From NCBI RefSeq assembly GCF_017642925.1, contig NZ_JAEPOL010000020.1:1-64000 (forward strand): a stretch of 64,000 bases of DNA, in the 5' to 3' direction. A model generated the notes under the pieces. The model had not been told where the DNA came from. It made no database searches and saw nothing but the letters and a program-made list of their open reading frames with translations. The stretch is from Maricaulis sp. (GTDB lineage: Bacteria; Pseudomonadota; Alphaproteobacteria; Caulobacterales; Maricaulaceae). Shown piece after piece: positions 1-19,227 of the stretch. A program made the position numbers and the translations under genes. Within the stretch, counting starts at the first letter, position 1. Every line of letters starts with the position of its first letter.

Positions 1-180
1 ACTTCAAATCGGACACACGATGTCCGCCGTGCATCCCGCACCCCTCTCATCGCTCCAGGGCGCAAGCCCGTGGAGGATTTCGTGCTTCCTCATCTCCAAA
101 CATGCACGATTTTTCCCGGAAGCGCGCAGCGCGGTCCGGGACCGACTGGACGCGGCTCACGCTTCACACCGGTCGGTAGA

Positions 181-339
181 TCCCGGATCTGCAGCCTGCC
201 TGCGCAGGCTTGCATCCGGGAAAAATGGGAGAGGTTGAAATGAACACTTCCGCTTTCCCCGGATTTATTCCGGGGTCTGGCGGCGTTTCAGGAGGAGGCT
301 CCTCCTGGCCCCGGCACGGGGGCCGGGGAAAATGGAGAG
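181..339. repeat. Cluster of GC-rich hairpins in the non-coding stretch before aspS
   Basis: I see no convincing gene in bases 1-474. The stretch contains four inverted repeats: arms TCCCGGAT/ATCCGGGA at 181-188 and 214-221; CCCCGGA/TCCGGGG at 257-263 and 269-275; AGGAGGAG/CTCCTCCT at 290-297 and 299-306; GGCCCC/GGGGCC at 307-312 and 319-324. The first and last are each followed by a near-identical purine-rich tail (CCGGG, then A-run, then TGGGAGAG or TGGAGAG, at 216-234 and 323-339), as if a hairpin-plus-tail module was duplicated. No T-run follows, so they do not look like intrinsic terminators. REP-like intergenic elements are the likeliest explanation, but the family is not identified. 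Confidence 0.5.
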
Positions 340-474
340 AGCGGAGAGAGTGGAGAGCGGTGGAGCGAAGTCACCATCCCAACTGCGCCCGATCCCCCGT
401 GCAGCTTGACATTTCACCCTGCAAACCGGCACATCGCGGCACCTGTCTAACACCGATTTCCGGACGCTTTACCC

Positions 475-2289
475 ATGCACGCATACCGTACCCATACCTG
501 CGCCCAGCTGCGCAAGGACCATGTCGGCCAGACGGCCCGGATTTCCGGCTGGATCCATCGCAAGCGCGACCATGGCGGTCTGCTCTTCATCGACCTGCGC
601 GATCATTACGGGCTGACCCAGGTCGTGCTGGAGCCGGAGAGCGCACACTTCGCCACGCTGGAGCGTCTGCGGGTGGAAAGCGTGATCACGGTGACCGGCG
701 AAGTGATCGCCCGTTCTGCCGAGACGGTGAATGCCAATCTGCCGACCGGCGAGATCGAGGTGCGCCTGGCCGATCTGTCGATCCAGTCGGCGGCCGAGGA
801 ATTGCCGCTGCCGGTGTTCGGCGAGCCGGACTGGTCGGAAGAAGTGCGTCTGAAGCACCGCTATATCGATCTGCGCCGCGAGAGCCTGCACAAGCGTATC
901 GTGCTGCGCTCGAAGATCATCGACTCGATCCGCCGCCGCATGGTCGAGGAGGGTTTCACCGAATACCAGACGCCGATCCTGACGGCTTCCTCGCCGGAAG
1001 GCGCGCGCGACTTCCTGGTGCCCTCGCGTCTGCACCCGGGCAAATTCTATGCGCTGCCGCAGGCGCCGCAGCAGTTCAAGCAGCTGATCATGGTCTCCGG
1101 CTTCGACCGCTATTTCCAGATCGCACCCTGTTTCCGTGACGAGGACGCTCGCGCCGACCGTGCGCCGGGCGAATTCTACCAGCTCGACATGGAAATGAGC
1201 TTCGCCACCCAGCAGGACGTGTTCGACGTGATCGAGCCGGTGATGAAGGGCCTGTTCGACGAGTTCGCCGATGGCCGTCATGTTCCGGACGAACCCTTCG
1301 TGCAGATCCCGTATTTCGATGCGATCCGCTGGTATGGCTCGGACAAGCCGGACTTGCGCAACCCGATCAAAATGTCGGACGTGTCGGAAACCTTCCGCGG
1401 TTCCGGCTTCAAGGTGTTTGCCGGCATGCTGGAGAAGAACCCCAAGGTCGAGGTCTGGGCGATCCCGGCCAAGACCGGCGGCAGCCGCGCCTTCTGTGAC
1501 CGGATGAATGCCTGGGCCCAGAAAGAAGGCCAGCCGGGGCTGGGCTATATCTTCTGGCGCGAGGAAGAGGGTGCCGTGGTGGGTGCCGGCCCGATCGCCA
1601 AGAATATCGGCGAGGAGCGCACCGAGGCGCTGCGCGCGGAGCTGGGTCTGGAAGCCGGCGATGCCGTCTTCTTCGCGGCCGGCGATCCGAAGGACTTCTA
1701 CTCGTTTGCCGGCAAGGCGCGCGATGTGGTCGGCACCGAGCTGGACCTGTGCGAGACAAATACGTTCCGCTTCTGCTGGATCGTCGACTTCCCGATGTAT
1801 GAGTGGGATGAGGAGAACAAGAAGATCGACTTCTCCCACAACCCGTTCTCGATGCCGCAGATCGATCCGGACGAATTCCTGAAATTCGACGGCTCCGACC
1901 AAGAGGCGCTGCTGAGCCTGAAGGCCTTCCAGTACGACATCGTCTGCAACGGTGTGGAACTGTCGTCCGGCGCAGTACGGAACCACCGTCCCGACGTGAT
2001 GCTGAAAGCCTTCGGCTTTGCCGGCTACGACGCCGAGACCGTGGAAGAAGAGTTCGGCGGCATGCTGAACGCCTTCCGCTATGGCGCCCCGCCGCACGCC
2101 GGTATCGCACCGGGTGTGGACCGCATCGTCATGCTGCTGGCCGGCGTGGAGAACCTGCGCGAAGTCGTGATGTTCCCGAAGGACCAGCAGGCCCGCGACC
2201 TGATGATGAACGCTCCGGCCGAGGTGGAGATGAAGCAGCTTCGCGAGCTTCACCTGCGCACCGTGGTGCCGGACAGCAAGAAGGATTGA
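475..2289 (+). CDS. aspS: Aspartyl-tRNA synthetase
   Basis: Class II aminoacyl-tRNA synthetase that charges tRNA-Asp in the cytoplasm. The 604-residue length is normal for the bacterial type. The N-terminal OB-fold anticodon-binding domain begins with MHAYRTHTC and continues with the conserved [11 protein letters not shown] and FIDLRDHYG. Class II motif 2 is seen as [10 protein letters not shown], the bacterial GAD insertion lies in the middle, and motif 3 is near the end ([15 protein letters not shown]). The start matches the usual family start although no strong ribosome-binding site precedes it. The gene stands alone, closed by a terminator at 2314-2349. Identification is secure; whether it also mischarges tRNA-Asn was not assessed. 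Confidence 0.97.
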
Positions 2290-2313
2290 GGCCAGCCCTC
2301 ACGACCGAAAAAA

Positions 2314-2349
2314 GGCCCCGGAGACACCTCCGGGGCCTTTTGCTTTTTT
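2314..2349. terminator. Bidirectional intrinsic terminator between aspS and the metalloprotease gene
   Basis: Perfect 10-bp arms GGCCCCGGAG / CTCCGGGGCC (2314-2323 and 2328-2337) enclose an ACAC loop. An A-run lies on the left and a T-run on the right, so it can end transcription from aspS (+) and from the convergent gene that stops at 2368 (-). Confidence 0.9.
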
Positions 2350-2367
2350 GGACCTGAGCCCCGGGAA

Positions 2368-4635
2368 TCAGGGCGCGGCAGTCTCGTCATTGTCTTCGGC
2401 CTCGGAGATGCCCGGCTGCAGGAAGTGCGGCGCGTCGAACCGGTAGGCCGGCGCGGCCATGCGGCCGGTCGATGCCTCGATCTCGATGGAATAGCCGACG
2501 CCGCTGCACGTCCCGGGCTCGGCGGGCAGGGTGCGGTTGAACACCATCAGGGCCGCATCGGAAAATCCGCTCGTATCGAACACGCCATCCTGTCCCAGGG
2601 GAATGGCGACAACCTCATCTCCGCGGCGGCCCAGGCCGATCAGTTCCAGCCCGTCCTCGCCTTCGAGCGTGATCTGGAAACGGCCGTCCAGATCGAACAC
2701 CAGATAGTCCGCACCCAGTTCTTCCAGTCCGCCCTTGGACATCCAGCGTCCGGTCTCGTCCAGCGTATAGCGCACGGCCACGGAGCCGGAGAAGAGCGGC
2801 GCCAGATCATAGGCCCGGGCATAATTCTGCGCCCGCCAGCGCTGGATCGTGGCGGGAATGTCGGTGCCATATTCGGCCAGTGTCGCGGACGCGGTTTCAA
2901 ACCCGTCCAGCGTCACGCTGTTCTCCCACAGGCGCCGCACCACCGCCTCGCCATGGCTGTCGGCCATGGATTGCAGCAGCGTCCACTGGGCATAGTCATG
3001 GCCGCCGGTCTGGGTGGTCCAGCACAGGTGCGGCGTGTCGAAATCGGTGCCGACATAGTCGGTCGCATCCTGGTCGCTGCCCATCGTGACGGTCTCGATC
3101 CAGGAGGCTGTCGCTTCATAGAGCCAGTCCAGGCCTTCCTCGGCGTCATAGCCGAACTGGACGACATGGTTGAACTCATGGGTGGCGGTGGCGCGCAGCA
3201 GGCTTTCCGCCGGCGCCTCCTTGCCCAGGCCCAGGAAATCATTGTCGATCACGAAGGCGGTCCGGGCCGCCAGGGTTTCGCGGACATCCGGCGTGTTGGG
3301 ATTGTCGAACACGGTCTCGACAGGCTTGGTGAAACCCATCGCCCCGTCGACATGGGCGACATAGGCACGGTAGCGGCCATTCTCGTCGCGCAGCGGTTCG
3401 GCCCAGCCCATCCGTTCGATCTGGGCTTCGTAGGAATCCTGCAGGGCGATACCCACCAGCTCGGCATAGTGCCCCGAGGAGGCGTCTCTACCGTCCAGCG
3501 TGTAGTGGACGATGAAGTCCTCGGTCTCCAGCGTCAGCTCCGGACCGCTCAGCGTGACGACGTTCTCGTTCAGCGCCTGGAGTGTGTCGACGACGCTGGC
3601 GTCCACAGCGCTCAGGACGATGCGGAATTCGCCGCTCGTGTCCGAACCGTGATAGCGCGAGATCTCCAGCGTATAGGTCCCGCTGTGCGCTGCGGTGTAG
3701 GCAATGGCCGAGTTCAGCGTGCCGTCGCCGCGATCGTCATTCATTGCGACGGGAAACCCGTCCGGCCCGTTCAGCGTCAGCACCGTGTCCAGATCGTCGG
3801 TGATTGCATCGGCGACGATCATCACCGTCTGGCCGGCGGTCAGCTCGACCGGATAGCTCTGCTCGCGATTGTCGGCGCCGAGCACGCCCGAGTGTTCGGC
3901 GATGATCTCGCCCTCGACGCTGGCGAAGTCGAACGGCACCTGGGCATTGGGGTCCAGCGCGAGGGAGAGGACAAGATCGCCCTGGCCCTGGCCGTCATAG
4001 CTGCCAACCAGAACGGTGAAGCGGCCCGCTTCGTCAGGCTGGTAGACGATCTGGGAGTTCAGCGAGCCATCGCCGCGATCGTCATTCTGGGCGAGGACAT
4101 TTCCGTCGGCATCCAGCAGGGTGAGCGTGGTGTCCAGCGTCTCGGTGAGGGCAAAGGTCGAGGCGACGAAGATGGTATCGGCGTCCAGATCGATCTCGGT
4201 GCGGACCTCGCTCGCGCCGCTGCCCAGCGTCACGACCTCCTCGCGCAGTGTTTCTGCGGCGTAGGACAGGCCGACATTCGCGCCTTCGGCAATGGTGAGT
4301 TCGAAGGCGCCGGTCGCTTCGCCATAGCCCGTCACGCGCGCTGTATAGCGGCCGCTCTCGGGCGGCATGAAGGTGATGCAGGACTGCAGCGAGCCGTCGC
4401 AATCATCATTCTGCGCGACCGGCTTGCCGTCGGGGCCGATCAGCGCGAGCACGGTGTCGAAATTTTCGATCGAAGCCGTGCTCAGCGTGACGACCTGTCC
4501 GGCCTCCAGCGTCAGCGGAAATTCGGCCTGCGGCGCGGCCTCTGTTACGGCGCCGGCAAACGGGCCCTCAGGTACCTGGGCCATGGCGGCACCGCTGGCC
4601 GACAGGCCAGCCAGAATGATGGTCGATATACGCAT
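2368..4635 (-). CDS. Secreted metalloprotease-like protein with three pre-peptidase (PPC) domains
   Basis: A 755-residue exported protein. The start at 4635 is preceded by AGGGGG and opens a clear signal peptide (cleavage near A-M-A-Q, residue 20). Three PPC-type beta-sandwich repeats follow; each carries the signature D-T-x-L-x-L with an NDD turn (around residues 60-78, 168-186 and 283-301). The catalytic part has a gluzincin-type HEFNH at 486-490 and a candidate third zinc ligand, Glu507, in WLYEATASW. This resembles the MXAN_6640-type putative metalloprotease family. An acidic C-terminal tail ends the protein. Substrate unknown; an envelope or extracellular role is inferred from the signal peptide. 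It is transcribed alone, convergent with aspS. Confidence 0.8.
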   Translation of the reverse strand: MRISTIILAGLSASGAAMAQVPEGPFAGAVTEAAPQAEFPLTLEAGQVVTLSTASIENFDTVLALIGPDGKPVAQNDDCDGSLQSCITFMPPESGRYTARVTGYGEATGAFELTIAEGANVGLSYAAETLREEVVTLGSGASEVRTEIDLDADTIFVASTFALTETLDTTLTLLDADGNVLAQNDDRGDGSLNSQIVYQPDEAGRFTVLVGSYDGQGQGDLVLSLALDPNAQVPFDFASVEGEIIAEHSGVLGADNREQSYPVELTAGQTVMIVADAITDDLDTVLTLNGPDGFPVAMNDDRGDGTLNSAIAYTAAHSGTYTLEISRYHGSDTSGEFRIVLSAVDASVVDTLQALNENVVTLSGPELTLETEDFIVHYTLDGRDASSGHYAELVGIALQDSYEAQIERMGWAEPLRDENGRYRAYVAHVDGAMGFTKPVETVFDNPNTPDVRETLAARTAFVIDNDFLGLGKEAPAESLLRATATHEFNHVVQFGYDAEEGLDWLYEATASWIETVTMGSDQDATDYVGTDFDTPHLCWTTQTGGHDYAQWTLLQSMADSHGEAVVRRLWENSVTLDGFETASATLAEYGTDIPATIQRWRAQNYARAYDLAPLFSGSVAVRYTLDETGRWMSKGGLEELGADYLVFDLDGRFQITLEGEDGLELIGLGRRGDEVVAIPLGQDGVFDTSGFSDAALMVFNRTLPAEPGTCSGVGYSIEIEASTGRMAAPAYRFDAPHFLQPGISEAEDNDETAAP

Positions 4636-4769
4636 GAACGCCCCCTGGAAACGAGTCCGGCCGCCCAGCCGGGCGCCTTGCCCACCGGAGTAGCGGCGTG
4701 CGGCGCGCGGCACAAGAAGGGGGCTGTCACGAATGATGGTGGGGGCTGGACGGCAGGGCCGTCGATGCC

Positions 4770-6014
4770 TCAGCGTTCGGGCGGCGGCGGAGGTGTTTCC
4801 GGCGGCGGGGGGGCAATCCGGAACTCGAACCGCGTGGTCACGCTGCTCCTGTCCGTCTCGCGCTGCAGCTCGCGAAGTGCGCGTTCCTGTTCGCGGGCCT
4901 CGCGCCGCAGCTCGTCCTGCAGCGCACGATGTTCGCGCAGCGCTTCCTCGCGCTCACGCTCGATCTCGGCGCGCTCGACATGGCGCTCACGCTGGATTTC
5001 GCGCAGCTCCCGTTCGGCGCGGGCAATCTCGCGCAGCGCTTCATTGGTGGCTTCGCGGATCGCTTCCCGGTCAAGATCCTCGGCGTGGATTTCCAGCGCC
5101 TGGCCGATCTGGGTGAGCACCTCGATGCGCGCGTTTTCCAGCGCCCGCAACTCCATGACGGTCTCGGCGTCGGATTCGCCCCGCAGGCGCAGCACATAGC
5201 TGTATTCCTGGGCCGGCCCGAAGCGCATTTCGTCGCTGCCGCTGCAGACCGGCAGCTGCAGGCCGTCATTCAGCTCGGTCGCATCATTGCCGCAGGCGCC
5301 GGTCAGGCTGTCCTTGGTCAGGCCGATGGCCTCGCGGATGCGGGCCGAGGAGAAATTCGTACCGGCGAGATTGGCGCCGGTGAAATCGACTTCGCCCAGT
5401 TCGGCATTCTCGAAGCTGGAGCCGGTCAGGTCGGCATTGCGGAAACTCACTTCGGTACCGGTGACTTCGGCAAAGTTGGCGCGGCGCAGTTCGGCCGCCC
5501 GGAAATTCGTCTCGTTCAGCTCGGCGCGCAGGAAATTCACCTGCCGCAGCCGGGCGCTGTTGAAGAGCGTGCCGTCGAGCCGGGAGCCGATGAAGGTGAC
5601 GAACACCATTTCGGTGGCGGAAAAGTCGGTGTCTTCGAGATCGGCGGCCGAGAAGTTCACCCGCTCGATCCGCGAGCCGGATAAGCGGGTGCCGGACAGG
5701 TTGGCGCGCGAGAAGGTGACACCGGTGAGCTGGGAGGCCGGCATGTCGGCATCGGAGAAATCGGTGTCGTTGAACCGGCTCTCCACGATGGTGACGCCTG
5801 GCAGCTCGCTGTCGGCAAAGGATGCGCCCTGGAAGTTCGCGCCGACAAAGACGGCACCGGCCAGGTTCTTGTCGGAGAAATCCCAGTTCTCGAACTCGCC
5901 GCCGATCGTCAGGCCACGCCGCGGATGATCGTCGTCTCCGCCCGCGAAAGCCGGAGCCGTCGCAAGGCAGGTTGCCGCAAGCAAAGCCGAAATGACGCGT
6001 GTCTGTATCCGCAT
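4770..6014 (-). CDS. Exported pentapeptide-repeat protein with C-terminal coiled coil and polyproline tail
   Basis: A signal peptide (MRIQTRVISALLAATCLATA, then PAFA) leads a 414-residue protein. About residues 35-215 are pentapeptide repeats of the A(D/N)LxG type, predicting a right-handed quadrilateral beta-helix. This ends in a cap with GLT, ACG, TEL and a final P-V-C. The next roughly 130 residues are very rich in Glu, Arg and Ala with heptad character, suggesting a long coiled coil. The C-terminus is proline-rich (APPPPETPPPPPE). ATG at 6014 is preferred to GTG at 6020. Its neighbour downstream of the 6140 gene shares the same cap motif, so the two look paralogous. Function unknown; a periplasmic scaffold is one possibility. 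Confidence 0.75.
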   Translation of the reverse strand: MRIQTRVISALLAATCLATAPAFAGGDDDHPRRGLTIGGEFENWDFSDKNLAGAVFVGANFQGASFADSELPGVTIVESRFNDTDFSDADMPASQLTGVTFSRANLSGTRLSGSRIERVNFSAADLEDTDFSATEMVFVTFIGSRLDGTLFNSARLRQVNFLRAELNETNFRAAELRRANFAEVTGTEVSFRNADLTGSSFENAELGEVDFTGANLAGTNFSSARIREAIGLTKDSLTGACGNDATELNDGLQLPVCSGSDEMRFGPAQEYSYVLRLRGESDAETVMELRALENARIEVLTQIGQALEIHAEDLDREAIREATNEALREIARAERELREIQRERHVERAEIEREREEALREHRALQDELRREAREQERALRELQRETDRSSVTTRFEFRIAPPPPETPPPPPER

Positions 6015-6139
6015 ATCCACTCAGATACGGCAGTCGCCGGGGGAGTTCGACTTAAATCACAGTAACCCCGGTGCATATCGTATGAAGCCCGCCTGTCCTT
6101 GGCCAGCCTTGGCGCCGGCTTTCCTTGTGCAGGACGTGT

Positions 6140-6628
6140 CTAATTGCAGCGCGGGATGTGCAGGCCGGCCGGCAGTTCCGTGGACTCGTCGCCGCACGCC
6201 CGGTTCAGCTGGGACTGGGTCAGGCCACGCGTCGTGCCCAGTTCGGCTCCGGACAGGTTGGCGCCCTCGAGATTGGCACCGGTCAGATCGGCGCTGTGCA
6301 GATAGGCGCCGACCAGATTGGCACGGCTGAGATCGGCACCGCGGAAGCTGGCACTGGTGAAACGGCCGCCGAACAGGTTCGCCACCGACAGGTTCGCATT
6401 GTCGAAGCGGGCGCCGTTCATGGTCACGAGGGCCAGGCTGGCCTGGCGCAGGCGACTGCCCGACACGTCGATGCCGGGGAGGTCGAGATAGGACAGGTCG
6501 GCCTGGAACAGGTTGCAGCCGGGGCAGGACTGGCCGGACTGGACCCGGGCAATCTGTGAGGCATCCTGGGCATGGGCGGCGGTCCCGAGGGTCAGGACGG
6601 CCAGGGCGGCAAGCCAAATCCGTTTCAT
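6140..6628 (-). CDS. Small exported pentapeptide-repeat protein
   Basis: A 162-residue protein starting at MKRIWLAALAVLTLG, a signal peptide ending near A-H-A-Q. After a CPGC motif it consists of pentapeptide repeats (LSYLDLPG, ANLSVANLFG, ADLTGANLEG). It closes with the same cap seen in the neighbour ending at 4770: GLT, ACG, TEL, GL, P-x-C. The paired Cys in ACG and the last P-x-C could form a disulfide after export. It lies between the RNR-like gene and the larger pentapeptide gene on the same strand and may share their transcript, though gaps of about 60 and 125 bp separate them. Function unknown. Confidence 0.75.
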   Translation of the reverse strand: MKRIWLAALAVLTLGTAAHAQDASQIARVQSGQSCPGCNLFQADLSYLDLPGIDVSGSRLRQASLALVTMNGARFDNANLSVANLFGGRFTSASFRGADLSRANLVGAYLHSADLTGANLEGANLSGAELGTTRGLTQSQLNRACGDESTELPAGLHIPRCN

Positions 6629-6687
6629 TCTGGAGCGCTCCGAACGACTGGCCTCTCGCGAAGCAAGAGCCGTACCGGTGGACGGGA

Positions 6688-9645
6688 TCAGTCGATGGCC
6701 GGACCCGTCCAGCCGCAAGCATCGCAATTGCGCGGTTCACCGTCACCGCCGGCGACGGTGAAATGGCCGCACTCGGGGCAGGGATCGCCGGAATAGGCCG
6801 TGATGTCACGGCTGCCGGCCCGCGTGATCGTGTGATCCTCGAGCTCGTAATGCCCGGCTTCGCCGGACCCGTCGCCGCGGCCGCTCGCCGCTTTGCGCGG
6901 GGCATTGGCGAACATCAGGATATTGTCCGGCACCTGGCCGCGCGAGAAACCGCGCGAGATGAATTTCGCGGCGTCTTCCTGGGCGAGCTTTTCCTGCTGG
7001 ACACCCTTGCCCAGACCGCCGGGGTCGGCCCGGTCCGGTGAGACTTCCGCCAGATCCTCGCGGCCCAGATAGGACACGCCCAGTTCGCGGAAGAGATAGT
7101 CCAGGATGGAGGTCGCCTGCTGGATCGAGTCATTGCCCTCGACCGGGCCGGCCGGCTCGAACCGCGTATAGACGAAGGCGTCGACATATTCTTCCAGCGG
7201 CACGCCGTATTGCAGGCCGATGGAGATCGCGATGGCGAAATTATTCATCAGCGAGCGGAAGGCCGCGCCTTCCTTGTGCATGTCGATGAAGATCTCGCCC
7301 AGCTCGCCATCGTCGAACTCGCCGGTGTGAAGATAGACCTTGTGACCGCCCACCGTGGCCTTCTGGATATAACCTTTCCGGCGATCCGGCAGCTTGCGGC
7401 GCGCTGCGGGCTTCTCGACCACGCGCTCGACGGTCCGCTCGACAATGCGTTCATGGATCTGCGGCGCGGCGTCGGCGGCATAGTCGCCCTTGTCGAAATC
7501 GATCGCCGGCAGCAGATCGAACAGGCCCGATGCCGTGCGGCGGATATCCAGCCGGCGCAGGCCCAGCTCGGCGCCGGCATCGATCAGCGCCGACACATCG
7601 TCGATCGTCGCATCGCCGTCCAGCTCGAGGGCGATGGCGCAGGCTCCGCCGATCTGCTGTTCGACGGAATGTGCCATGCGCATGATGCCGTGCGGTGCGA
7701 CCGGTGCGAAGACCGACCGGATCTCGGCGGGCAGGGTGGGGGAATCGTGCAGTTCGCCCGTGCCCTGGGCATGGCGGTCGGCGGCAGCGATGTCGGCTTC
7801 GGAAAAGCCCAGAGCGCGGCACAGGGAGGCGCCTTCGGCCTCGACCACATCGCTGGACAGACCCAGCTCGCGGCAGACCCGGTCGCCCAGCGTCCAGCGA
7901 TTGAGGGCATGGCGGATCGAGGCGCCTTCCGCGATCGAATCCTCCAGCCTTTCAAGCACGTCTTCGGGCAGGCCGCGTTCGGCCAGCGCTTCCAGCGACA
8001 GGGCCGGAGCGCCCGCCAGCGTACCACGGCCGGCGGCGTGATCCTCGGCCTGCTCGATGCGGGCGGCTGACTGGTCCAGCGCCTCGAGGCCCTGGCGGAC
8101 GCAACGCCGCAGGGTGCGGCCACCGCCGAACACATCGCCGGTGGTCGTTGTGGCGCCCAGAACGGGGGCCGCACCGTCGCTGTCTGCATCCATCAGGCCC
8201 GCGACAGCGCTGTCGACAGGACCGCAGGCCAGCACCACGCCCGGACGGGCGAGGGCGGCCTTGGGCAGGAAGGGTGTTGCTGCGTCTTCCAGACGCGCGG
8301 CCACCGTCTCGAATCCGGCCGGCAATGTATCGAGCGGAATGTCCGGACCCAGGCCCGGTGCGCTGGCGCCGGTACCGGCTGCCGCATCGCGCAGGGCGAG
8401 GGTCGCCAGCCGGGCGATCGCCGCGGCAGCGGTGCGTCCCTCATCGCTGTCATAGGCCAGCCCGCAGGCGGTCAGCGCTGCGCCAAGCCCCGTCAGGCTG
8501 ATCGTGCCGGCCCAGGCGGCGCCCTTCGGCGCGCTCAGGGCCAGGGCTGCCGCCCAGTAGCGTATGGCATCGAACAGGAGATCGGCGTCGAAACTGCCCT
8601 CCACACCGATATAGGCAGGCAGGTTGACGAACAGGGTCGGTCCGGCCGCGTCCGGGCTTTCATGGAAGGCCAGGGACGGGGTGCCGAAACTCCAGACGGT
8701 CCGGGCGATCCCGGTGCGGAAATCACGGGCGCGGACGCTGCCGCCATCCTGTTCGAAACTCCAGGCCTCGTCCTTGGCAATCGCCTCGCACAGGGCCGGC
8801 GGCACATACAGCCGGGCCTTGCGCTGCGGCAGCGGGTCGGGGATCAGCGCGCCGAGGGCATCGTCGCCGGTTCCCTGGCGGGCCAGCGACAGGGCGCGTT
8901 CGACGGCTTCCTCGGGAACTCCGTCCTTCAAGGCGCGGCGCATCGCCCGGGCAAGGGCGGCATTGCTGCGCGGATCGAAACAGTCGTCGGGCTCGCCGGA
9001 ACAGCGCCGGCAGGCTTCGCCGATGGCTTCCAGCCGCTCGCGGGTGACCCGGGCACCGACCTCGAGGATCGAGCCGCGCAGGGCGGTTTCCGCCACACGG
9101 CGCAACTGGCCGGGGGCGGTGCGGGCGGCCGCGCGGATCTGCAGCGGCAGTTCAGGAGCATCGGGGCTCTCCGGCGTATCGCCATAAGCCCAGTCGACCC
9201 CGCCCTCGGCGATCAGGTTCGCGTCGGGCATGACATGCCGGCTGGTCAGGCTGGCCGCGAGCTCACGGGCAAAGGTCTCCGCCATTTCCGGCGTCTCGAA
9301 CGCACCCTGGCGGGCCGCCGACCAGGCCAGCGATCCGGCGAGGCGCGTCGTTAAGCTTTCCAGCCCGCTCTCGGTGATGCGGGTCTCGTCATCGGCAATG
9401 TGCGGCGTCAGGCTGCCGATCACCTTCACACCCGGCCGCGGCCTGGTGCGCAGCGGGCGGGGCGTATCCAGAAGGTCGGCGAGGCTCTGGGCGGCGTTCG
9501 CGCTCCAGTCGGCAGGAACAATGATCGTCCGGCTGCTGGATGCCAGCTCGGCATCGTCGCCGGATGCGGTCACTGTACGCTCTTCCGGCGCAAGGCGTTC
9601 GCCTTGCCGGGCCAGCTGCTGCGCGAAACGATCGAAGACTTCCAT
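6688..9645 (-). CDS. Class II (B12-type) ribonucleotide reductase-like protein, apparently catalytically dead
   Basis: The 985-residue product follows alphaproteobacterial NrdJ from end to end but is shorter. Recognisable NrdJ segments in order: RLAG...DWAYG (101-154); an acidic helix plus FDP and LARQG (about 208-257); LYVPPAL (279-285); [19 protein letters not shown] (386-404); [11 protein letters not shown] (581-591); the TSCPD-like segment (650-710); and a very well kept block from [19 protein letters not shown] to [15 protein letters not shown] (758-860). A zinc-ribbon tail has CPEC and CDAC. The NPCSE catalytic motif expected near 320-345 reads [20 protein letters not shown] has become PDANLIAE, and the block after WAYG that carries the first redox Cys is missing. 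The start at 9645 has GAGGGTGG upstream. Family membership is clear; loss of reductase activity is inferred. Confidence 0.75.
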
Positions 9646-9851
9646 GCGTCCACCCTCAGACACCGGCCGGGCCCCGGTCATGCGCCGCGAATCGCCCGGA
9701 CAAGCTGCCAGTCTACCGTGTGGCGGGGCCGGTCAGAAGCCTGCGGGCGGGCAGGCTGCGACACCGTGCAGCCGCGTTCGGTACTGGACCCGCCCGCGCC
9801 ATGCGGGCATATAGGCCGCAACCTGTGTCGACCGACTCGGAGCCGCTGACA

Positions 9852-10262
9852 ATGTTCGGAACGATCGCCAAGATTTTCGTGTGGTGGAAAGACGCCACGC
9901 CGGGAACTTTCCTGACGCTGGCCATGCGCGGCGCCAGGAAGGTCGGCGAGGATGAATACGGCAATCGCTATTTCGAGGAGCGCGGCGTGACCGGCCCCGA
10001 CGGCAACAAGCGCCGCTGGGTGGTCTACAAGGGCTATGCCGACGCGTCGCGCGTGCCGTCCGACTGGCATGGCTGGCTGCATCACACCTTCGAGACGCCG
10101 CCCAGCGAAGAACCGCTGCGCCGTCAGCCCTGGGAAAAGGACCACCATCCCAATCTCACGGGCACGGTCTATGCCTATCGCCCGTCGGGCAGCCTGCTGA
10201 CGCCGCAGGGCCGTCAGTCTGCCACCGCCGATTACGAAGCCTGGTCGCCCGACGAAGCCTGA
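9852..10262 (+). CDS. NADH:ubiquinone oxidoreductase NDUFA12-type accessory subunit
   Basis: A 136-residue protein matching the NDUFA12/B17.2 family, a supernumerary complex I subunit shared by mitochondria and alphaproteobacteria. Visible hallmarks are GTFLTLAMRG, the VGEDEYGNRYFE segment, RRWVVYKG, the P-SDWHGWLHHT core and a C-terminal part rich in aromatic and basic residues (HHPNLTGT, then YRP and a DYE-W ending). It probably binds peripherally to the complex I membrane/matrix-arm junction on the cytoplasmic side. In many alphaproteobacteria it sits next to a DUF2155 gene and aat/acc genes, as here, so the order is syntenic rather than functional. Confidence 0.93.
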   Translation: MFGTIAKIFVWWKDATPGTFLTLAMRGARKVGEDEYGNRYFEERGVTGPDGNKRRWVVYKGYADASRVPSDWHGWLHHTFETPPSEEPLRRQPWEKDHHPNLTGTVYAYRPSGSLLTPQGRQSATADYEAWSPDEA

Positions 10263-10341
10263 GTTTTCCGCGGAGAGACGGCGCGGTCCTGCCTCAGCTC
10301 CGTCTCGACACGGTCATAATTGTCAGGGCAGAGTACGCGTC

Positions 10342-10791
10342 ATGAAAACCGTCTTCACCGCCTGTCTCCTTTCCCTGGGTCTTGCCGCCGGCGCGCTGGC
10401 GCAGGACAACGATCCTATCGGCGACATGCTGCGGGGCGATGACCCCGATGCACGCGACGGCGAGGAATTGTCGAGCGAACCGGGCAGCATCGTCGTGCTG
10501 CGCGGTCTGGACAAGGTCACTGCCCGGACCCGCGATTTCGAGATCGCGATCGGCGAGACCGTGAATTTCGGCGCCCTGGCCATCACGCCGCGCTATTGCC
10601 GCCGCCGTCCGCCCGAAGAGACCCCGGAAACCTATGCCTTCCTGGAAATCCGAGACCGCCGCACCGACGGTTTCGGGGTTGATACGGATGGCGAGGAGAT
10701 TTTCTCGGGCTGGATGTTTGCCTCGCGTCCGGCGCAGAACCCGCTGGAACACGCCGTCTACGACGTCTGGGTGATCGACTGCAGGGCCTGA
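10342..10791 (+). CDS. DUF2155 exported protein
   Basis: A 149-residue protein with a signal peptide ([17 protein letters not shown], cut near A-L-A-Q). The DUF2155 domain covers most of the rest: [27 protein letters not shown], then a C-terminal FSGWMFAS and [11 protein letters not shown]. The two conserved cysteines (in R-Y-C and I-D-C) could pair in the periplasm. The biochemical role of DUF2155 is unknown. It follows the NDUFA12 gene on the same strand by about 80 bp. Its last 34 bases overlap the 3' end of the convergent aat gene. Confidence 0.9.
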
Positions 10792-11408
10792 GCCCCGCTC
10801 ATCCCCTCGGGCACGGGTGGAAATCCCGTCTTTATCTTCAGGGCATCGGCCAGGCGCAGATGATACATCGCGCGCGGTATGGTGATCGCGCCGAAGCGTT
10901 CCAGATGTTCTGTGGTGAATTGGGTATCCAGCAGGATGAAGCCGCCGGCCTTCAGCTGGGCGATGAGATGGACCAGCGCCACCTTGGACGCGTCAGTGCG
11001 CCGCGAGAACATGCTCTCGCCGAAAAAGGCCCCGCCCAGCGAAACCCCGTACAGACCGCCGACCAGTTCACCGTCCTGCCAGCTCTCGACGCTGTGGGCG
11101 AAACCCAGCTGGAAAAGTTCGCGATAGAGGCTGAGAATACCGTCATTGATCCAGGTTTCCTCACGGCCCGGCGCCGGTTCGGCGCACCCGGCCACCACGG
11201 CCTCGAAGGCAGTGTCAAAACGGATGTCGAACGCGTCCTGGCGGACCGCCTTGCGCAGGGTGCGCGGAATGTGGAACCCCTCCAGCGGCAGCACGCCCCG
11301 CTCGTCCGGGTCGAGCAGGTAGATCCGCGGATCGTCGCGTCCCTCGGCCATGGGAAACACGCCGCGGGCATAGCATTCGATCAGGTCTTCTGCGCCGAAA
11401 CCGCGCAT
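10758..11408 (-). CDS. aat: Leucyl/phenylalanyl-tRNA--protein transferase
   Basis: Transfers Leu or Phe from tRNA to proteins with N-terminal Arg or Lys, creating N-degrons that ClpS delivers to ClpAP; clpS and clpA are at 35947-38587. The 216-residue protein has the family core: YARGVFPM, the [13 protein letters not shown] segment, [31 protein letters not shown], the conserved D-ASK-ALVHL and [14 protein letters not shown] at 11408 follows a GGGAG and is preferred to an in-frame TTG at 11438. The 3' end overlaps the convergent DUF2155 gene by 34 bp. Confidence 0.95.
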
Positions 11409-11492
11409 CGGGCTACCGCTCCCAACGCGTGACCGCAAACACAGGAACGGTCACGCAATCGCTCAAGATGCGGGACCGCGGGGTCCCGGCGG

Positions 11493-12839
11493 CTAGCCGT
11501 TACGCTTGGCCAGCCATTCCTCAAGCCAGCGGATGTGGTAGTCCCCGTTCACGAAATCCGGTTCCTCGAGCAGGTCGAGGAAGATCGGGATCGTCGTCTC
11601 CACTCCGCCGACCACCATTTCTTCCAGCGCACGGCGCAGGCGCAACAGGGTCTCCGTGCGCGTACGGCCGTGAACGATCAGCTTGCCGATCAGGCTGTCA
11701 TAATAAGGCGGAATGGAATAGCCCGCATACAGGGCGGAATCGAGGCGGACGCCGAGGCCGCCCGGCGCGTGGAAATCGGTCACCGTGCCCGGCGAGGGCG
11801 CGAAGGTCCGGGGGTTCTCCGCATTGATGCGGCATTCGATCGCCCAGCCTTCGAAGGTGATATCGTCCTGGGTGATGCCCAGCGGGGCACCGTCGGCGAC
11901 GCGGATCTGCTCGCGCACCAGGTCGATGCCGGTGATCATCTCGGTGACCGGGTGTTCGACTTGCAGGCGGGTATTCATTTCGATGAAGTAGAACTCGCCG
12001 TTTTCCCACAGGAATTCGATCGTGCCGACGCCGCGATAGCCGATGGCCTCGATGGCCTTGCGAACCGTCTCGCCGATCTTGGCGCGCTCTTCGGGGCTCA
12101 GAGCAGGCGAGGGGGCCTCCTCGAGGATTTTCTGGTGGCGGCGCTGCAGCGAACAGTCACGCTCGCCCAGATGGACGACATTGCCGTGCATGTCGGCAAG
12201 CACCTGGATTTCGATATGGCGCGGCTGGCCGAGATATTTTTCCAGATAGACCGTGCCGTCGCCAAAGGCGGCCGAAGCTTCCGCCGAGGCAGTCTCCATG
12301 GCTTCCTTCAGCTTGTCGGCGCTCTCGGCGACCTTCATGCCGCGGCCACCGCCGCCGGATGCGGCCTTGATCAGCACCGGATAGCCGATCTCCGCGGCAA
12401 TCGGCTGGGCTTCTTCATAGGTCGCCACGCCGCCTTCCGAACCGGGGACCACCGGAATACCGGCTTCCATCACGGCCTTCTTGGCGGTGATCTTGTCGCC
12501 CATCATGCGGATGTGTTCGGCCGTCGGGCCAATGAAGGCCAGGCCATGCGCCTCGACGATCTCGGCGAAGCGGGCGTTCTCCGACAGGAAGCCGTAGCCC
12601 GGGTGGATCGCCTGGGCGCCCGTCACTTCGGCTGCCGTGATGATGGCGGGAATGTTGAGATAGGACTTGCCGGCCGGCGGCGGGCCGATGCACACGCTCT
12701 CGTCCGCCAGGCGGACATGCATGGCATTGGCGTCGGCCTCGGAGTGGACGGCCACCGTGCGGATGCCCATTTCGCGGCAGGCGCGATGGACACGAAGGGC
12801 AATCTCGCCGCGATTGGCGATCAGGATCTTTTCGAACAT
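11493..12839 (-). CDS. accC: Acetyl-CoA carboxylase, biotin carboxylase subunit
   Basis: ATP-dependent carboxylation of biotin on AccB, the first half-reaction of malonyl-CoA synthesis. The 448-residue length is standard. Visible are the N-terminal MFEKILIANRGEIALR, the ATP-grasp glycine loop KAASGGGGRGMK, the ERDCSLQRRHQK and EEAPSP segments, the catalytic EMNTRLQVEHPVTE, and the C-terminal ECRINAE. It lies 25 bp downstream of accB in the same operon, as in most bacteria. Nothing is unusual. Confidence 0.98.
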   Translation of the reverse strand: MFEKILIANRGEIALRVHRACREMGIRTVAVHSEADANAMHVRLADESVCIGPPPAGKSYLNIPAIITAAEVTGAQAIHPGYGFLSENARFAEIVEAHGLAFIGPTAEHIRMMGDKITAKKAVMEAGIPVVPGSEGGVATYEEAQPIAAEIGYPVLIKAASGGGGRGMKVAESADKLKEAMETASAEASAAFGDGTVYLEKYLGQPRHIEIQVLADMHGNVVHLGERDCSLQRRHQKILEEAPSPALSPEERAKIGETVRKAIEAIGYRGVGTIEFLWENGEFYFIEMNTRLQVEHPVTEMITGIDLVREQIRVADGAPLGITQDDITFEGWAIECRINAENPRTFAPSPGTVTDFHAPGGLGVRLDSALYAGYSIPPYYDSLIGKLIVHGRTRTETLLRLRRALEEMVVGGVETTIPIFLDLLEEPDFVNGDYHIRWLEEWLAKRNG

Positions 12840-12864
12840 GTCGGCTCTCGCGTCGGCTTGGGCG

Positions 12865-13347
12865 TCAGGAGAGGACGAAGAGAGCTTCGCCGTATTCCAC
12901 CGGCTGCCCGTCCTCGACCAGGATATCCGTGATCGTACCGGCCTTCTCGGCGGTGATCGGGTTGAAGGTCTTCATCGCTTCGACCAGCAGGATGGTGTCA
13001 CCCTGTTTCACCTGGTCGCCGACGCGCACGAACAGGGCGGCGTCCGGATTGGGCTTCAGATAGACCGTGCCGACCATCGGCGATTTCACCGTGCCGGGCT
13101 TTTCAGCAGCTTCGGCTGCAGCTGGAGCCGCGCCGGGGGCAGCAGCCACCGGTGTCGGAGCTGGCGCAGCGGCCGGGACGGAGACGGTCTGCACGGCCGG
13201 CGCAGCGGTCAGCTGACGGGCAATCCGCAGACGCAGATCGTCATGCTCGACTTCGATCTCGGACAGTTCCGTCTCGCGCAGGATATCCGCGAGTTCGCGG
13301 ACCAGCTGGGGGTCGATCGGGGAGCGGGAACGGGAATCAGAACTCAT
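12865..13347 (-). CDS. accB: Acetyl-CoA carboxylase biotin carboxyl carrier protein
   Basis: The 160-residue carrier whose biotinylated lysine is loaded by AccC. It has an N-terminal helical segment (VRELADILRETELSEIE), an Ala/Pro-rich flexible linker (about residues 58-85) and a C-terminal biotinyl domain (SPMVGTVY...) containing VEAMKTFNPI. The biotin site reads AMKT rather than the commoner AMKM, a tolerated variant. The start at 13347 gives the usual short N-terminus; its ribosome-binding site is weak. Upstream, aroQ ends only 23 bp away on the same strand, so aroQ-accB-accC form one likely operon. Confidence 0.97.
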   Translation of the reverse strand: MSSDSRSRSPIDPQLVRELADILRETELSEIEVEHDDLRLRIARQLTAAPAVQTVSVPAAAPAPTPVAAAPGAAPAAAEAAEKPGTVKSPMVGTVYLKPNPDAALFVRVGDQVKQGDTILLVEAMKTFNPITAEKAGTITDILVEDGQPVEYGEALFVLS

Positions 13348-13370
13348 GATGATCAGGCCTTTGGTTCCGT

Positions 13371-13814
13371 CTATTGCGTTTCGAGGCATCCGGCGGCGGC
13401 AGTGATACCGAGCAGGTAGCTGTTCAGCCCCAGACCGGTAATCGAGCCCCGCGCGGCGGATGCGATGTAGGAGTGGTGTCGGAAAGCTTCGCGTGCCGCT
13501 GTCTGACTCAAATGAACTTCGATGACCGGAGGTTCTATAGCGCGAACGGCGTCATGCAAAGCGACCGATGTATGCGTATAGGCACCCGGGTTGAAGACAA
13601 CTGCAGACGCGTTGACGTTTGCGTCATGCAGCCAGTCGATCAGTTCGCCTTCATGGTTGGACTGGCGAAACACGATGGAAATCCCCAGATCACGGGCGTG
13701 GGCGGTGCAGGCCTGTTCGATGTCGGCGAGCGACATGGAACCGTAGACCTCGGGCTCGCGGGTGCCGAGAAGATTGAGATTCGGTCCGTTGAGGATGTGA
13801 ATGGGTTTGCTCAT
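13371..13814 (-). CDS. aroQ: Type II 3-dehydroquinate dehydratase
   Basis: Shikimate-pathway enzyme that converts 3-dehydroquinate to 3-dehydroshikimate; type II enzymes form dodecamers in the cytoplasm. The 147-residue protein shows ILNGPNLNLLGTREPEVYG (lid with catalytic Arg/Tyr), RQSNHEGELIDWLHDA, FNPGAYTHTSVAL and EVHLSQ with the catalytic His. The last motif usually ends in Asn rather than Gln. It is the first gene of the aroQ-accB-accC operon, an arrangement common in alphaproteobacteria, and diverges from thiS across 34 bp. Confidence 0.97.
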   Translation of the reverse strand: MSKPIHILNGPNLNLLGTREPEVYGSMSLADIEQACTAHARDLGISIVFRQSNHEGELIDWLHDANVNASAVVFNPGAYTHTSVALHDAVRAIEPPVIEVHLSQTAAREAFRHHSYIASAARGSITGLGLNSYLLGITAAAGCLETQ

Positions 13815-13848
13815 GGCCTTGCCTTGAAGCCTCAAGGAGAATTACGAG

Positions 13849-14091
13849 GTGAGTGACGTCAGGACTCACGAAAGGTCAAGCGAAGCCGTGCTGCAGCTAA
13901 CAGTCAATGGCGAAAGCCGGTCGATTGCCGATGGCGCCCGTGTGGCGGACCTGGTGAGCGACCTGAATCTGGACGGACGGAAGATCGCCGTGGAGCGGAA
14001 TCTGGAGATTGTTCCGCGATCGCAATACGCCGGAACGGCGCTGCAGGACGGCGACCGGATCGAGATTGTCGCATTTGTTGGAGGTGGATGA
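13849..14091 (+). CDS. thiS: Sulfur carrier protein ThiS
   Basis: A small ubiquitin-like carrier that delivers sulfur as a C-terminal thiocarboxylate for thiazole synthesis in thiamine biosynthesis. The 80-residue product ends FVGGG, with the required terminal Gly-Gly. The core [20 protein letters not shown] and the [13 protein letters not shown] segment are typical. The start is GTG at 13849, placed behind an AAGGAG. It has about 14 extra N-terminal residues compared with a usual ThiS. The stop is followed after one base by thiG, so the two are translationally coupled. No TPP-riboswitch-like leader fits in the 34 bp before it. Confidence 0.93.
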
Positions 14092-14092
14092 G

Positions 14093-14893
14093 ATGGATGA
14101 TGCCGTAACCCCGAACGTCGCGGAGGACACGCCGCTGGTGGTCGCCGGCCGCACCTTCACCTCCCGCCTCATCATCGGTACGGGCAAATATGCGACCTAC
14201 GCCCAGAATGCCGAGGCGCTGAAGGCGTCCGGCGCCGAGATGATCACGGTCGCCGTGCGCCGGGTGAACCTGTCCAATCCGGACGAGCCGCGCCTGGTCG
14301 ATTTCATCTCGCCCGAGGATTACACCTATCTGCCCAATACGGCCGGCTGCTTTACCGGCGAGGACGCGATCCGCACGCTGCGCCTGGCGCGCGAGGCGGG
14401 CGGCTGGAATCTGGTGAAGCTGGAAGTCCTGTCCGATCCCAAACACCTCTACCCCGACATGGCCGAGACGCTGCGCGCGGCGGAGATGCTGATCAAGGAC
14501 GGGTTCGAGGTGATGGTCTACTGCTCCGACGATCCGGTCTACGCCAGGAAGCTGGAAGAGATCGGCTGCTGTGCGATCATGCCGCTGGGCGCGCCGATCG
14601 GTTCGGGCCTGGGTATCCAGAACCCCGTCAATATCCGCCTCATCGTCGAACAGACCAAAGTGCCGGTGATCGTCGATGCCGGTGTCGGTACGGCGTCCGA
14701 TGCCGCCGTGGCGATGGAGCTGGGCTGTGACGGTGTGCTGATGAACACGGCGATTGCCGAGGCGAAGGATCCGGTCCGGATGGCCCGTGCGATGCGTCAT
14801 GCCGTGATTGCCGGCCGCGAGGCCTATCTGGCCGGCCGCATGCCGAAGAAGCGCTATGCCGATCCGTCCAGTCCGCTTTCCGGTCTGATCTGA
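14093..14893 (+). CDS. thiG: Thiazole synthase
   Basis: Forms the thiazole phosphate ring of thiamine from 1-deoxyxylulose 5-phosphate, dehydroglycine/iminoglycine and ThiS thiocarboxylate. The 266-residue TIM-barrel has the family motifs [36 protein letters not shown] (with the catalytic lysine), [23 protein letters not shown] and [18 protein letters not shown] precedes the ATG within the end of thiS. No thiE, thiO/thiH or thiC lies in the window. Confidence 0.97.
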
Positions 14894-14912
14894 TTCATTT
14901 CGCTCTTGCGAT

Positions 14913-14927
14913 GTTCCGTTTTTGTTC
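14913..14927 (+). promoter_or_regulatory. Candidate LexA box upstream of the VOC gene
   Basis: The sequence GTTC CGTTTTT GTTC is an exact match to the alphaproteobacterial LexA operator GTTC-N7-GTTC. It ends 30 bp before the ATG at 14958, a normal operator position. The only gene it can serve is the VOC protein, since thiG ends at 14893 on the same strand. Confidence 0.6.
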
Positions 14928-14957
14928 TATTCTGATTTCCCAACAGGGAGAACCGGG

Positions 14958-15374
14958 ATGGAACAGCGTATCTCGCTTATCACCCTCGGCGTTGCCGATA
15001 CCGCGCGCTCGCGGGCTTTCTACGAAGCGCTGGGCTGGAAGGCGGCCTTCGAGAATGAGGAAGTCGTCTTCTTCCAGCTGAACGGCATCGTGCTGGGCCT
15101 GTTCCGGCGCGACAGTTTCGATCTCGACATGAAACGCGACAATGACGGCACGGGCCGGATCGCGCTCGCCTACAATGTCCGCGACCGGTCCGAGGTCGAC
15201 CCGGCGCTCGACCGGGCGGTGGCCGCCGGAGGCAGCGTGCTGAAGCGGGCCGAGGAGACCCCCTGGGGCGGATATTCCGGCTATTTCGCCGATCCGGATG
15301 GGCACGCCTGGGAAGTCGCGCACAATCCGGCCTGGACAATCACCGCGGCCGGCCATGTCGAGATGCGCGTCTGA
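14958..15374 (+). CDS. VOC (glyoxalase/bleomycin-resistance fold) protein
   Basis: A 138-residue vicinal-oxygen-chelate protein with two beta-alpha-beta-beta-beta modules: ISLITLGVADTARSRAFYEA-LGW and, in the second half, YFADPDGHAWEVAHNP. The metal-binding positions typical of these enzymes are partly present (E in W-E-V-A), but the substrate cannot be told from sequence. Members include dioxygenases, glyoxalases, epimerases and drug-binding proteins. The likely LexA box just upstream suggests induction by DNA damage, which would fit detoxification or sequestration of a genotoxic compound; that is inference. Confidence 0.85.
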   Translation: MEQRISLITLGVADTARSRAFYEALGWKAAFENEEVVFFQLNGIVLGLFRRDSFDLDMKRDNDGTGRIALAYNVRDRSEVDPALDRAVAAGGSVLKRAEETPWGGYSGYFADPDGHAWEVAHNPAWTITAAGHVEMRV

Positions 15375-15440
15375 CCGCTTGTCCGGCTCGCGATGGCGGG
15401 CATCAGTTCAGGAGGACGGAACCGGCAAGCCCTGCGGTTC

Positions 15441-15926
15441 TCACCTGCGTTCATTGCAGGGGATCATCCGGTCGCCACGCCGGGGCTCGTCGATCCGGCG
15501 GCGCTCTCCCGTCGCATCGTCGATAAAAAGCCGGTGGTTATAGGTGCGCAGGGCGGTCGTCGGTCCCGGGCCGCCGCGGATCGCAAGACGCATCTCCTGG
15601 CGTCCGGTCTCGCCGCTGCCGTCCGGTGCCGGGCCGTGCAGGATCCACAGCATGTCGGTCCAGATCCCGCTGCCGGACGTCAGCCCGTTGGAGTAAAGAC
15701 CACGGCGCTCGTCCAGGCGCAGATATCCGGCAATCTCGCCCTGGCTGTAGATCGTGATCCGGTCGCCGGCGATGTCCCAGACATCCGTGCGGTCCTTGCA
15801 GCCCGTCCCGTTGCCCCAGCCCCAATCGCCATCCTGCTGCACGTATTCGCGCAGCTCTCCCGGCATCTTGCCGCAGGCGGCCGGCAGGATGGCAAGACAG
15901 GCCATGGGGATAAGAGCGTACCGCAT
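15441..15926 (-). CDS. Small exported hypothetical protein
   Basis: A 161-residue protein of no recognised family. The N-terminus MRYALIPMACLAILPAACGK is a signal peptide; PAAC could act as a poor lipobox, making it a lipoprotein, although Pro at -3 is unusual. The mature part is compact with aromatic residues (DGDWGWGNG, WTDMLWILHG), a central ITIYSQGEIAGYLRL and a second cysteine pair (TGCKDR, IPCNER). ATG at 15926 is chosen because it opens the signal sequence. It stands alone between a VOC gene and a DsbA-like gene. Function unknown. Confidence 0.6.
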   Translation of the reverse strand: MRYALIPMACLAILPAACGKMPGELREYVQQDGDWGWGNGTGCKDRTDVWDIAGDRITIYSQGEIAGYLRLDERRGLYSNGLTSGSGIWTDMLWILHGPAPDGSGETGRQEMRLAIRGGPGPTTALRTYNHRLFIDDATGERRRIDEPRRGDRMIPCNERR

Positions 15927-16019
15927 CGCGTCTCCGGGTCCGGTTCCGCCATTGTCTAGCTGAACCGGACCGGACGCGGGCATCCCCTGTTCCGGGGACG
16001 CGAAGGCAGCGTGCAGGGG

Positions 16020-16763
16020 CTACCCGGCGAGCGCCCGCTGCAGGGCTTCGTCGAGCGCGAGTTCGTTGGCGCCGGATACGATCGTGCCGTCGACGATGAA
16101 GAAGGGCGTGCCCGTCACGCCCAGCACTTGGCCGAGCGAGCGCACCTGGCTGATGTGTTCCATGATGGCCGGGCTTTCCATCGCCTCGCGCATGCGCTCG
16201 ACATCCACACCCGACACGCGGGCGAGCTGGTTGATCCGCTCGCTGGGCAGCGGCCCGGAGGAGGACACCATCGCATTGTGGAAGGCCTCGTAGATGTCCG
16301 TCCCCTGTTGCAGGGCCGCGATCGCCGCGCGCGACGCCTCCAGCGAATCCTCGCCCAGGATCGGGTATTCCTTGATGATGAACTGGATGCGGTCGCCATG
16401 CTCTTCGCGCACGTCCTCGACCCAGTCATTGGCGACCCGGCAGTAGGAGCATTTGTAGTCCATGAATTCGACGATCACGATCTCCGCGTCTTCCGGGCCG
16501 AGGCGCGGGTCGCGCGGGTCGTTGTAGATGGCCTCGGACTGGGCTTCGACGGCGTCATAGGCGGCCTGCATCTCGCGGGCGCGGGCCCGGCGCTGCAGCT
16601 CGATCAGGGCCTCTTCGATGATTTCCGGGTTCTCGAGAATGTAGTCACGCACGATGTCGCGCACTTCCTCGCGCTGCGTGTCGGACAGTTGGGCGCTGGC
16701 ATCGCCTTGCTGGCAACCCATCAGGAGAATGGCGGCGGCGAAAATTCCCGCGAAACGTGTCAT
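16020..16763 (-). CDS. DsbA-family thiol-disulfide oxidoreductase lipoprotein
   Basis: A 247-residue protein with an N-terminal lipobox (AAILLMGC, Cys about 17), so it is probably membrane-anchored and facing the periplasm. An N-terminal helical segment (about 30-85, ILENPEIIEEALIELQRR) precedes a thioredoxin/DsbA domain: VEFMDYKCSYC contains the CxxC active site CSYC, and GTPFFIVDG carries the cis-proline. This layout matches the DsbA/BdbD (Com1-like) group in alphaproteobacteria. The start at 16763 is chosen for the lipobox; further upstream starts would bury it. It diverges from mntP. Confidence 0.88.
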   Translation of the reverse strand: MTRFAGIFAAAILLMGCQQGDASAQLSDTQREEVRDIVRDYILENPEIIEEALIELQRRARAREMQAAYDAVEAQSEAIYNDPRDPRLGPEDAEIVIVEFMDYKCSYCRVANDWVEDVREEHGDRIQFIIKEYPILGEDSLEASRAAIAALQQGTDIYEAFHNAMVSSSGPLPSERINQLARVSGVDVERMREAMESPAIMEHISQVRSLGQVLGVTGTPFFIVDGTIVSGANELALDEALQRALAG

Positions 16764-19221: not shown

Positions 19222-19227
19222 CGGGTT

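Follow-up and report, generated by a model that had tools for sequence, protein, structure and literature searches.

The window analysed here comprises 64,000 nucleotides of a Maricaulis sp. genome (contig NZ_JAEPOL010000020.1) and harbors an nrdJ-like reading frame, which is mapped together with its landmarks and neighbors in Table 1. The true start of the gene is likely the in-frame ATG at 9645, corresponding to residue 13 when counted from the first ATG, and the plus strand at the same coordinates is interrupted by stops. Landmarks in the order typical of the class II ribonucleotide reductase (RNR) NrdJ run through the protein, i. e. WAYG (residues 164–167), FDPRSN (235–240), a barrel segment (407–416), an 11-residue segment (593–603), RRKGYIQK (767–774), CPEC (968–971) and CDAC (986–989). 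That these landmarks are kept from end to end had been proposed in the initial annotation and is borne out by profile searches: the NCBIfam NrdJ model NF005736 matches with an E value of 5e-134 and 448 bits, below its cut-off of 1737, and the Pfam domain TSCPD (PF12637) reaches 46.7 bits, above its cut-off of 22.8. When the PDB was searched by sequence at E values up to 1, only the class II RNR chains 7b9p and 7b9q matched, both titled Rhodobacter sphaeroides. Near the gene, no Rfam RNA, including the B12 riboswitch, was found at gathering score within window positions 1–20000. In seven of 23 short forms of the protein (see below), the YebC/TACO1 N-terminal domain is matched weakly (best E 1.7e-05), within a segment that active NrdJ also has.

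Table 1. Features at the nrdJ locus (positions refer to the window).
Feature	Position	Strand	Basis or remark
nrdJ orthologue lacking catalytic residues by alignment, 997 aa (985 aa from 9645)	6688..9681	−	ORF, NF005736 match, alignment
Ten-residue segment replacing the PNSPQWFN stretch of active NrdJ	9205..9234	−	
Deletion behind WAYG that took out the first active-site redox Cys	9112..9180, approximate	−	boundaries by eye
Cysteine cluster C224, C227, C234	8980..9012	−	alignment
YebC/TACO1-like segment, residues 236–265	about 8887–8976	−	
Ten-residue junction at which the NPCSE finger loop is deleted	8638..8667	−	alignment
Ten-residue conserved barrel landmark	8434..8463	−	
TSCPD (IscU-like) core, residues 757–880	7042..7413	−	PF12637 match 773–867 = 7081–7365
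Proposed zinc-ligand cysteines C968, C971, C986, C989 (CPEC...CDAC)	6715..6780	−	assignment from passages of PMC5704485
NDUFA12, divergent neighbor retained at dead and at many active nrdJ loci	9852..10262	+	
Pentapeptide-repeat gene directly downstream of nrdJ	6140..6727	−	
Second pentapeptide-repeat gene	4770..6020	−	

Short and full-length nrdJ genes share one chromosomal place, which is flanked by accB, accC, aat, a DUF2155 gene and NDUFA12 on one side and by pentapeptide-repeat genes and aspS on the other. The window gene is thus an nrdJ orthologue by descent and the positional orthologue of alphaproteobacterial nrdJ. The two pentapeptide-repeat genes (4770–6727, minus strand) are found downstream of nrdJ in many genomes of the order and, judged by eye, likely carry signal peptides.

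The protein was compared across 61 genomes representing its own strain, genus, family and order. Among these, 58 match the window protein at one locus each, comprising 15 full-length proteins, 41 short forms, one gene cut by a contig end (G033) and one fragment of 158 codons (G008). Residue counts were made without G033 and the alignment combines the 15 full-length with the 41 short orthologues. PNSPQW and NPCSE are present in all 15 full-length proteins. In the short forms, the NPCSE segment is deleted throughout, with gaps at the Asn and the thiyl cysteine in 41/41 and a gap (36) or an Ala (5) at the Glu. The first active-site redox cysteine is a gap in 41/41 and the second is a cysteine in 0/41. 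The window protein itself possesses neither a finger loop with NPCxE and its thiyl cysteine nor the active-site redox pair. The six-cysteine tail array of the C-terminal cysteine-rich domain (CRD) of NrdJ is likewise incomplete. With tail columns paired by spacing with residues of Stackebrandtia nassauensis NrdJ, whose ligand and redox assignments are taken from passages of PMC5704485, the cysteines aligned with the proposed zinc ligands Cys-920, 923, 936 and 939 are kept in all 41 short forms, and those aligned with the proposed redox pair Cys-933 and Cys-945 in none of them. By alignment, the window nrdJ has evidently lost its radical loop, its active-site redox cysteines and its tail redox pair. 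The initial annotation had regarded NPCSE, PNSPQWFN and the stretch with the first redox cysteine as replaced or missing and had proposed a pseudoenzyme; both readings withstand the alignment, which places no catalytic or redox cysteine in register in any short form, and the frame remains open over 985 codons under purifying selection. Two findings go beyond what had been noted: of the six tail cysteines only the two proposed as redox pair are lost and the four proposed to bind zinc remain, and the pattern spans the order rather than a single odd gene. A further cysteine cluster, CxxCxG(x4)CFDP, which perhaps constitutes a metal site, occurs in both the short forms and the active NrdJ of family f1 and is missing from the examples of f2 and f4 that were inspected.

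The opposite picture is found at the C-terminal end. Considering columns in which no more than one of the 15 full-length proteins deviates, short forms keep 1% of them in reference positions 201–250 around the first redox cysteine and 10% in positions 451–500 around the radical loop, versus 94–99% in the four blocks of positions 951–1150 within which the TSCPD core lies. In a second, overlapping set of 34 full-length proteins, including other orders, and 30 short forms, the short forms reach a retention of at least 90% in 69 out of 73 near-invariant columns of the core. The TSCPD profile matches in 23/23 short forms scanned, and many of the invariant core residues are charged. Hence, the earlier observation that conservation is strongest in the C-terminal block and not in the active site holds across the sample, and the hint that this block has a role of its own gains strong support from the column conservation; an allosteric partner, a dNTP or B12 sensor and a scaffold had been named as candidate roles. 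Since the TSCPD end is kept almost unchanged despite the catalytic loss, a second job of that end is suggested.

An AlphaFold2 model of the window protein (mean pLDDT 81.6, pTM 0.71, with 498 of its 996 residues scoring at least 90) finds its best PDB match in 7b9p, the NrdJ of R. sphaeroides (E 4.5e-31, TM 0.52/0.57). In this prediction the old barrel, which is ten-stranded in RNRs, is still modelled as a class II RNR. The isolated C-terminal region yields a poorer model with a mean pLDDT of 74.4 and a pTM of 0.50, and a Foldseek search with this model returned no PDB match at E values up to 0.001, with IscU entries appearing at E 0.48–0.90.

Selection was assessed by Nei-Gojobori dN/dS across 18 congeneric orthologues, in all of which the frame is open; dS is partly saturated, and 29 of 153 pairs have a whole-gene dS below 1. 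Median dN/dS amounts to 0.33 in the N-terminal region, 0.29 in the barrel, 0.28 in the post-barrel region, 0.028 in the core and 0.22 in the tail. For codons 1–158 alone, comparison with the closest relative G008 gives 0.34, based on ten changes of each kind, synonymous and nonsynonymous. Constraint is extreme in the core and moderate in the rest of the protein. All regions lie well below 1, so that this comparison, which had been suggested as a check in the initial annotation, speaks against neutral decay. The frame is under purifying selection, and by sequence the protein retains its fold along with the TSCPD core and the four proposed zinc-ligand cysteines.

Within Caulobacterales, the C-terminal region was found in 141 of 150 genomes, active and dead forms counted together. 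The length of the dead forms varies between about 750 and 1,050 aa in this order. Frames shorter than 1,100 aa, a few of them cut by contig ends, account for 18/24 in family f1, 30/30 in f2, 27/27 in f3, 29/30 in f4 and 0/30 in f5; the f4 exception (G544) likewise lacks NPCxE. By frame length, three of the five sampled families contain the short type only. The region is absent from nine genomes, namely from all six sampled of genus g9 (G026, G444, G445, G504, G513 and G522) and three of twelve of genus g21 (G038, G447 and G463), which represent natural deletions. In a tree of the C-terminal region, from which G028 was left out, a weakly supported branch (75/96, recovered in 73% of bootstrap trees) separates the short forms from the rest, which is compatible with one origin, and a single short-form clade is not rejected by the AU test (p 0.263). 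On the rpoB tree, two changes or losses are needed. A tree including other dead lineages calls for four changes of type, with most deep forks open and several rows very long.

The gene of Caulobacter deserves attention in this context. Passages of PMC6538847 show Caulobacter crescentus CCNA_01966 as NrdJ in a figure of the B12 pathway, and it is annotated as a B12-dependent reductase in the part of PMC5869019 concerned. In a Caulobacter vibrioides control genome, NF005736 matches below its cut-off only, a weak result, as class I subunits of other genomes reach this level, too. Family f3, whose members are all short by frame length, includes G050, the RpoB of which has its best match in PDB entry 7ye1 (2745.6 bits versus 1778.1 for the next), which we take to be the Caulobacter polymerase. 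Because all f3 frames including that of G050 are short and the C. vibrioides match stays below cut-off, the Caulobacter gene is probably dead as well, as far as frame length and profile score can tell.

Similar forms occur beyond the order. A search of 389 genomes of the class, few of them from this order, located the C-terminal region in 267. Outside the order, among the matches listed, frames measure at least 1,062 aa; the exceptions are G223, G292 and G411, the last two with a contig end near the frame. Fifteen cases chosen from the class and order searches yielded three more groups without NPCxE, i. e. f22, f77 (G132 with 663 aa) and f119 (G223 with 912 aa). In a sample of f22, a match to the query was obtained in 113 of 120 genomes, and NPCxE is absent from all 14 frames translated among the 113. 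The f22 and f77 proteins read lack the zinc-finger CxxC pair at their end. G223 contains a second, near-identical short gene (L236, L239) on a small contig whose end cuts it, which may be an assembly artefact. In ten dead sequences from outside Caulobacterales, retention at 90% is limited to 32 of the same 73 columns; judged by these columns, the core is constrained much less, or in another way, in these lineages, and together with the missing zinc finger of f22 and f77 this suggests that the kept function may differ outside the order. Two f22 genomes (G589 and G642; L250–L253) encode elsewhere an intact NrdJ of 1199 and 1192 aa, respectively, in which PNSPQW and NPCSE are present and the tail has two CxxC pairs; in both genomes the dead gene beside NDUFA12 persists nonetheless. 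As a mirror case, G019 of family f1 encodes a 901 aa NrdJ (L195:2005–4710) with PNSPQW, NPCSE and a six-cysteine tail, in which TSCPD gave no match at E values up to 1. The dead gene of G589 and G642 and the G019 enzyme devoid of the core suggest that core and catalysis are separable in both directions.

The other RNR genes of the Maricaulis genome also support the pseudoenzyme reading. Following the earlier suggestion to look for a second intact nrdJ or nrdAB, nrdA, nrdB and a separate, compact class II RNR were found, all above their family cut-offs. The latter, an NrdJ_Z (TIGR02504; L034:3471–5231, contig C1), has 587 aa and NPCGE, and TSCPD is not among its listed matches. Among the relatives, the large-subunit profile (PF02867) matches in 61/61 genomes and the class I small subunit in 60/61; the only genome without the latter (G044, family f5) possesses a full-length NrdJ.

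Taken together, these results suggest that Maricaulis nrdJ descended vertically, lost reduction in place and was kept for a non-catalytic function of its TSCPD region, perhaps nucleotide-responsive assembly, an explanation that we favor on balance. Its parts are not equally firm: the core very probably has a non-catalytic function, that it senses nucleotides is a tentative suggestion, and an action on class I RNR is unlikely. According to this scenario, the second function of the core would already have been present in active NrdJ, and the catalytic barrel would have decayed around it. The core may act as a nucleotide-responsive assembly module that answers purine deoxynucleotides and drives oligomerization, which is the least certain step, with the barrel remnant as a dimerizing scaffold and the zinc finger in a structural role. 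The resulting oligomer could then regulate or scaffold a partner. An assembly role is proposed because the corresponding domain of S. nassauensis NrdJ is, according to passages of PMC5704485, required for dATP/dGTP-induced tetramers. The same passages state that the domain raises the apparent effector affinity and mention indirect hints of a third nucleotide site, for which binding assays were inconclusive. In the part of PMC9669993 concerned with the IscU-like domain of class II RNRs, its role is described as unreported. Nucleotide-dependent assembly is thus the preferred, yet unproven mechanism. One point against this explanation is that the gene is dispensable over evolution, given its absence from nine of 150 genomes of the order.

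Conceivably, the TSCPD region of the dead enzyme serves a role unrelated to nucleotides, such as protein or RNA binding, perhaps tied to its divergent neighbor. NDUFA12 is an accessory subunit of complex I. It is present at 34 of 36 loci with frames below 1,060 aa and at 43 of 92 longer, mostly full-length ones, where classes are defined by frame length (the cut G033 is classed as short and an extended Maricaulis frame as long, and the Maricaulis loci include duplicates), and it also lies beside the f22 and f77 forms. The constancy of this neighbor could point away from a nucleotide mechanism. NrdR-like boxes, scored against a consensus of 12 positions, are rare before nrdJ of the order (2/19 full-length and 1/42 short genes; Fisher p 0.23), so that a role in dNTP supply is not favored; at a score of at least 10/12 on the same consensus, they precede 34 of 69 full-length nrdJ genes outside the order, versus 4 of 650 shuffles. 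The absence of a box was also considered as a mark of the dead form and discarded, as active nrdJ genes of the order mostly lack boxes, too. The many invariant charged core residues would fit a nucleotide-unrelated role, although they do not indicate a purpose. However, the occurrence of NDUFA12 near many longer genes implies that the neighborhood is probably ancestral, and nucleotide-dependent oligomerization is the only non-catalytic property described for the domain in passages of PMC5704485. We consider a nucleotide-unrelated role possible, if rather doubtful.

As a special case of the assembly model, the protein could regulate class I NrdAB via nucleotide-dependent hetero-oligomers. All 41 short-form genomes contain a class I small subunit, but the same applies to 14 of the 15 genomes with full-length NrdJ. 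Moreover, nrdJ is not co-located with nrdAB in the Maricaulis genome, and NrdR-like boxes precede nrdA (10/12) and nrdB (11/12) there, but rarely nrdJ of the order. Such a regulator thus appears improbable. Still less credible is an electron-delivery or structural partner acting in trans on another class II RNR, comparable to NrdJb of Pseudomonas aeruginosa. The compact enzyme with no TSCPD among its listed matches could be such a client, and passages of PMC5704485 describe electron transfer between the subunits of S. nassauensis NrdJ. Yet, TCEP-driven turnover of that enzyme needs each of its six cysteines (same source), the compact enzyme occurs in just nine of 41 short-form genomes, and with the tail redox pair lost in 41/41 a trans electron donor was rejected. 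A pseudogene in the course of being lost would account for the fast barrel divergence, the variable frame lengths and the missing genes, but is highly improbable in view of the open frames, the presence of the region in nearly all genomes of the order and dN/dS medians of 0.028 in the core and 0.22–0.33 elsewhere, which speak against neutral decay. A residual reductase with an unusual active site, which the confidently modelled barrel and the remaining cysteines might recall, is hardly conceivable with the finger loop deleted in 41/41 short forms and was rejected, the remaining cysteine cluster lying outside the active site and being found in active f1 relatives and missing in f2 and f4 examples.

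Returning to the favored reading, its more general form would likely hold: the IscU-like TSCPD region may be an independent non-reductase module around which the reductase decayed in several alphaproteobacterial lineages, and the genes that carry the nrdJ annotation in much of Caulobacterales, with C. crescentus NrdJ probably among them, would encode a conserved non-enzyme. Neither a catalytically dead class II RNR nor a phenotype of this gene was found described in the open-access literature. Orthologues devoid of catalysis with a nearly letter-for-letter core separate the function of the domain from electron transfer and render it testable by deletion. If true, automatic annotation as B12-dependent reductase is wrong for many Caulobacterales, as are models of B12 or nucleotide metabolism that rest on it.

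The closest known relatives are class II RNRs with a CRD, such as S. nassauensis NrdJd (described in passages of PMC5704485) and R. sphaeroides NrdJ (7b9p). With these the window protein shares domain order, fold, TSCPD core and zinc-ligand cysteines, and with alphaproteobacterial nrdJ the chromosomal place; unlike NrdJd and 7b9p, it is devoid of the radical loop and of both redox cysteine pairs, that of the active site and that of the tail. NrdJb from the split class II RNR of P. aeruginosa, as outlined in parts of PMC5704485 and PMC9669993, combines an IscU-like domain with a zinc finger on a chain without a working active site, to which the TSCPD region and the proposed zinc-ligand cysteines of the window protein would correspond. 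However, NrdJb serves an active NrdJa, whereas the window protein has no redox pair, retains a fused barrel remnant, and belongs to a group of which most genomes have no other class II RNR. The compact NrdJ_Z of the same genome has only the RNR superfamily in common with it, being a different gene with NPCGE and 587 aa. Some herpesviruses encode catalytically inactive relatives of the class I large subunit. Here, too, a relative of the RNR large subunit has been retained for a role other than reduction, but these proteins are of class I, viral and retain another part of the protein, so that an analogy is drawn here and no relation claimed.
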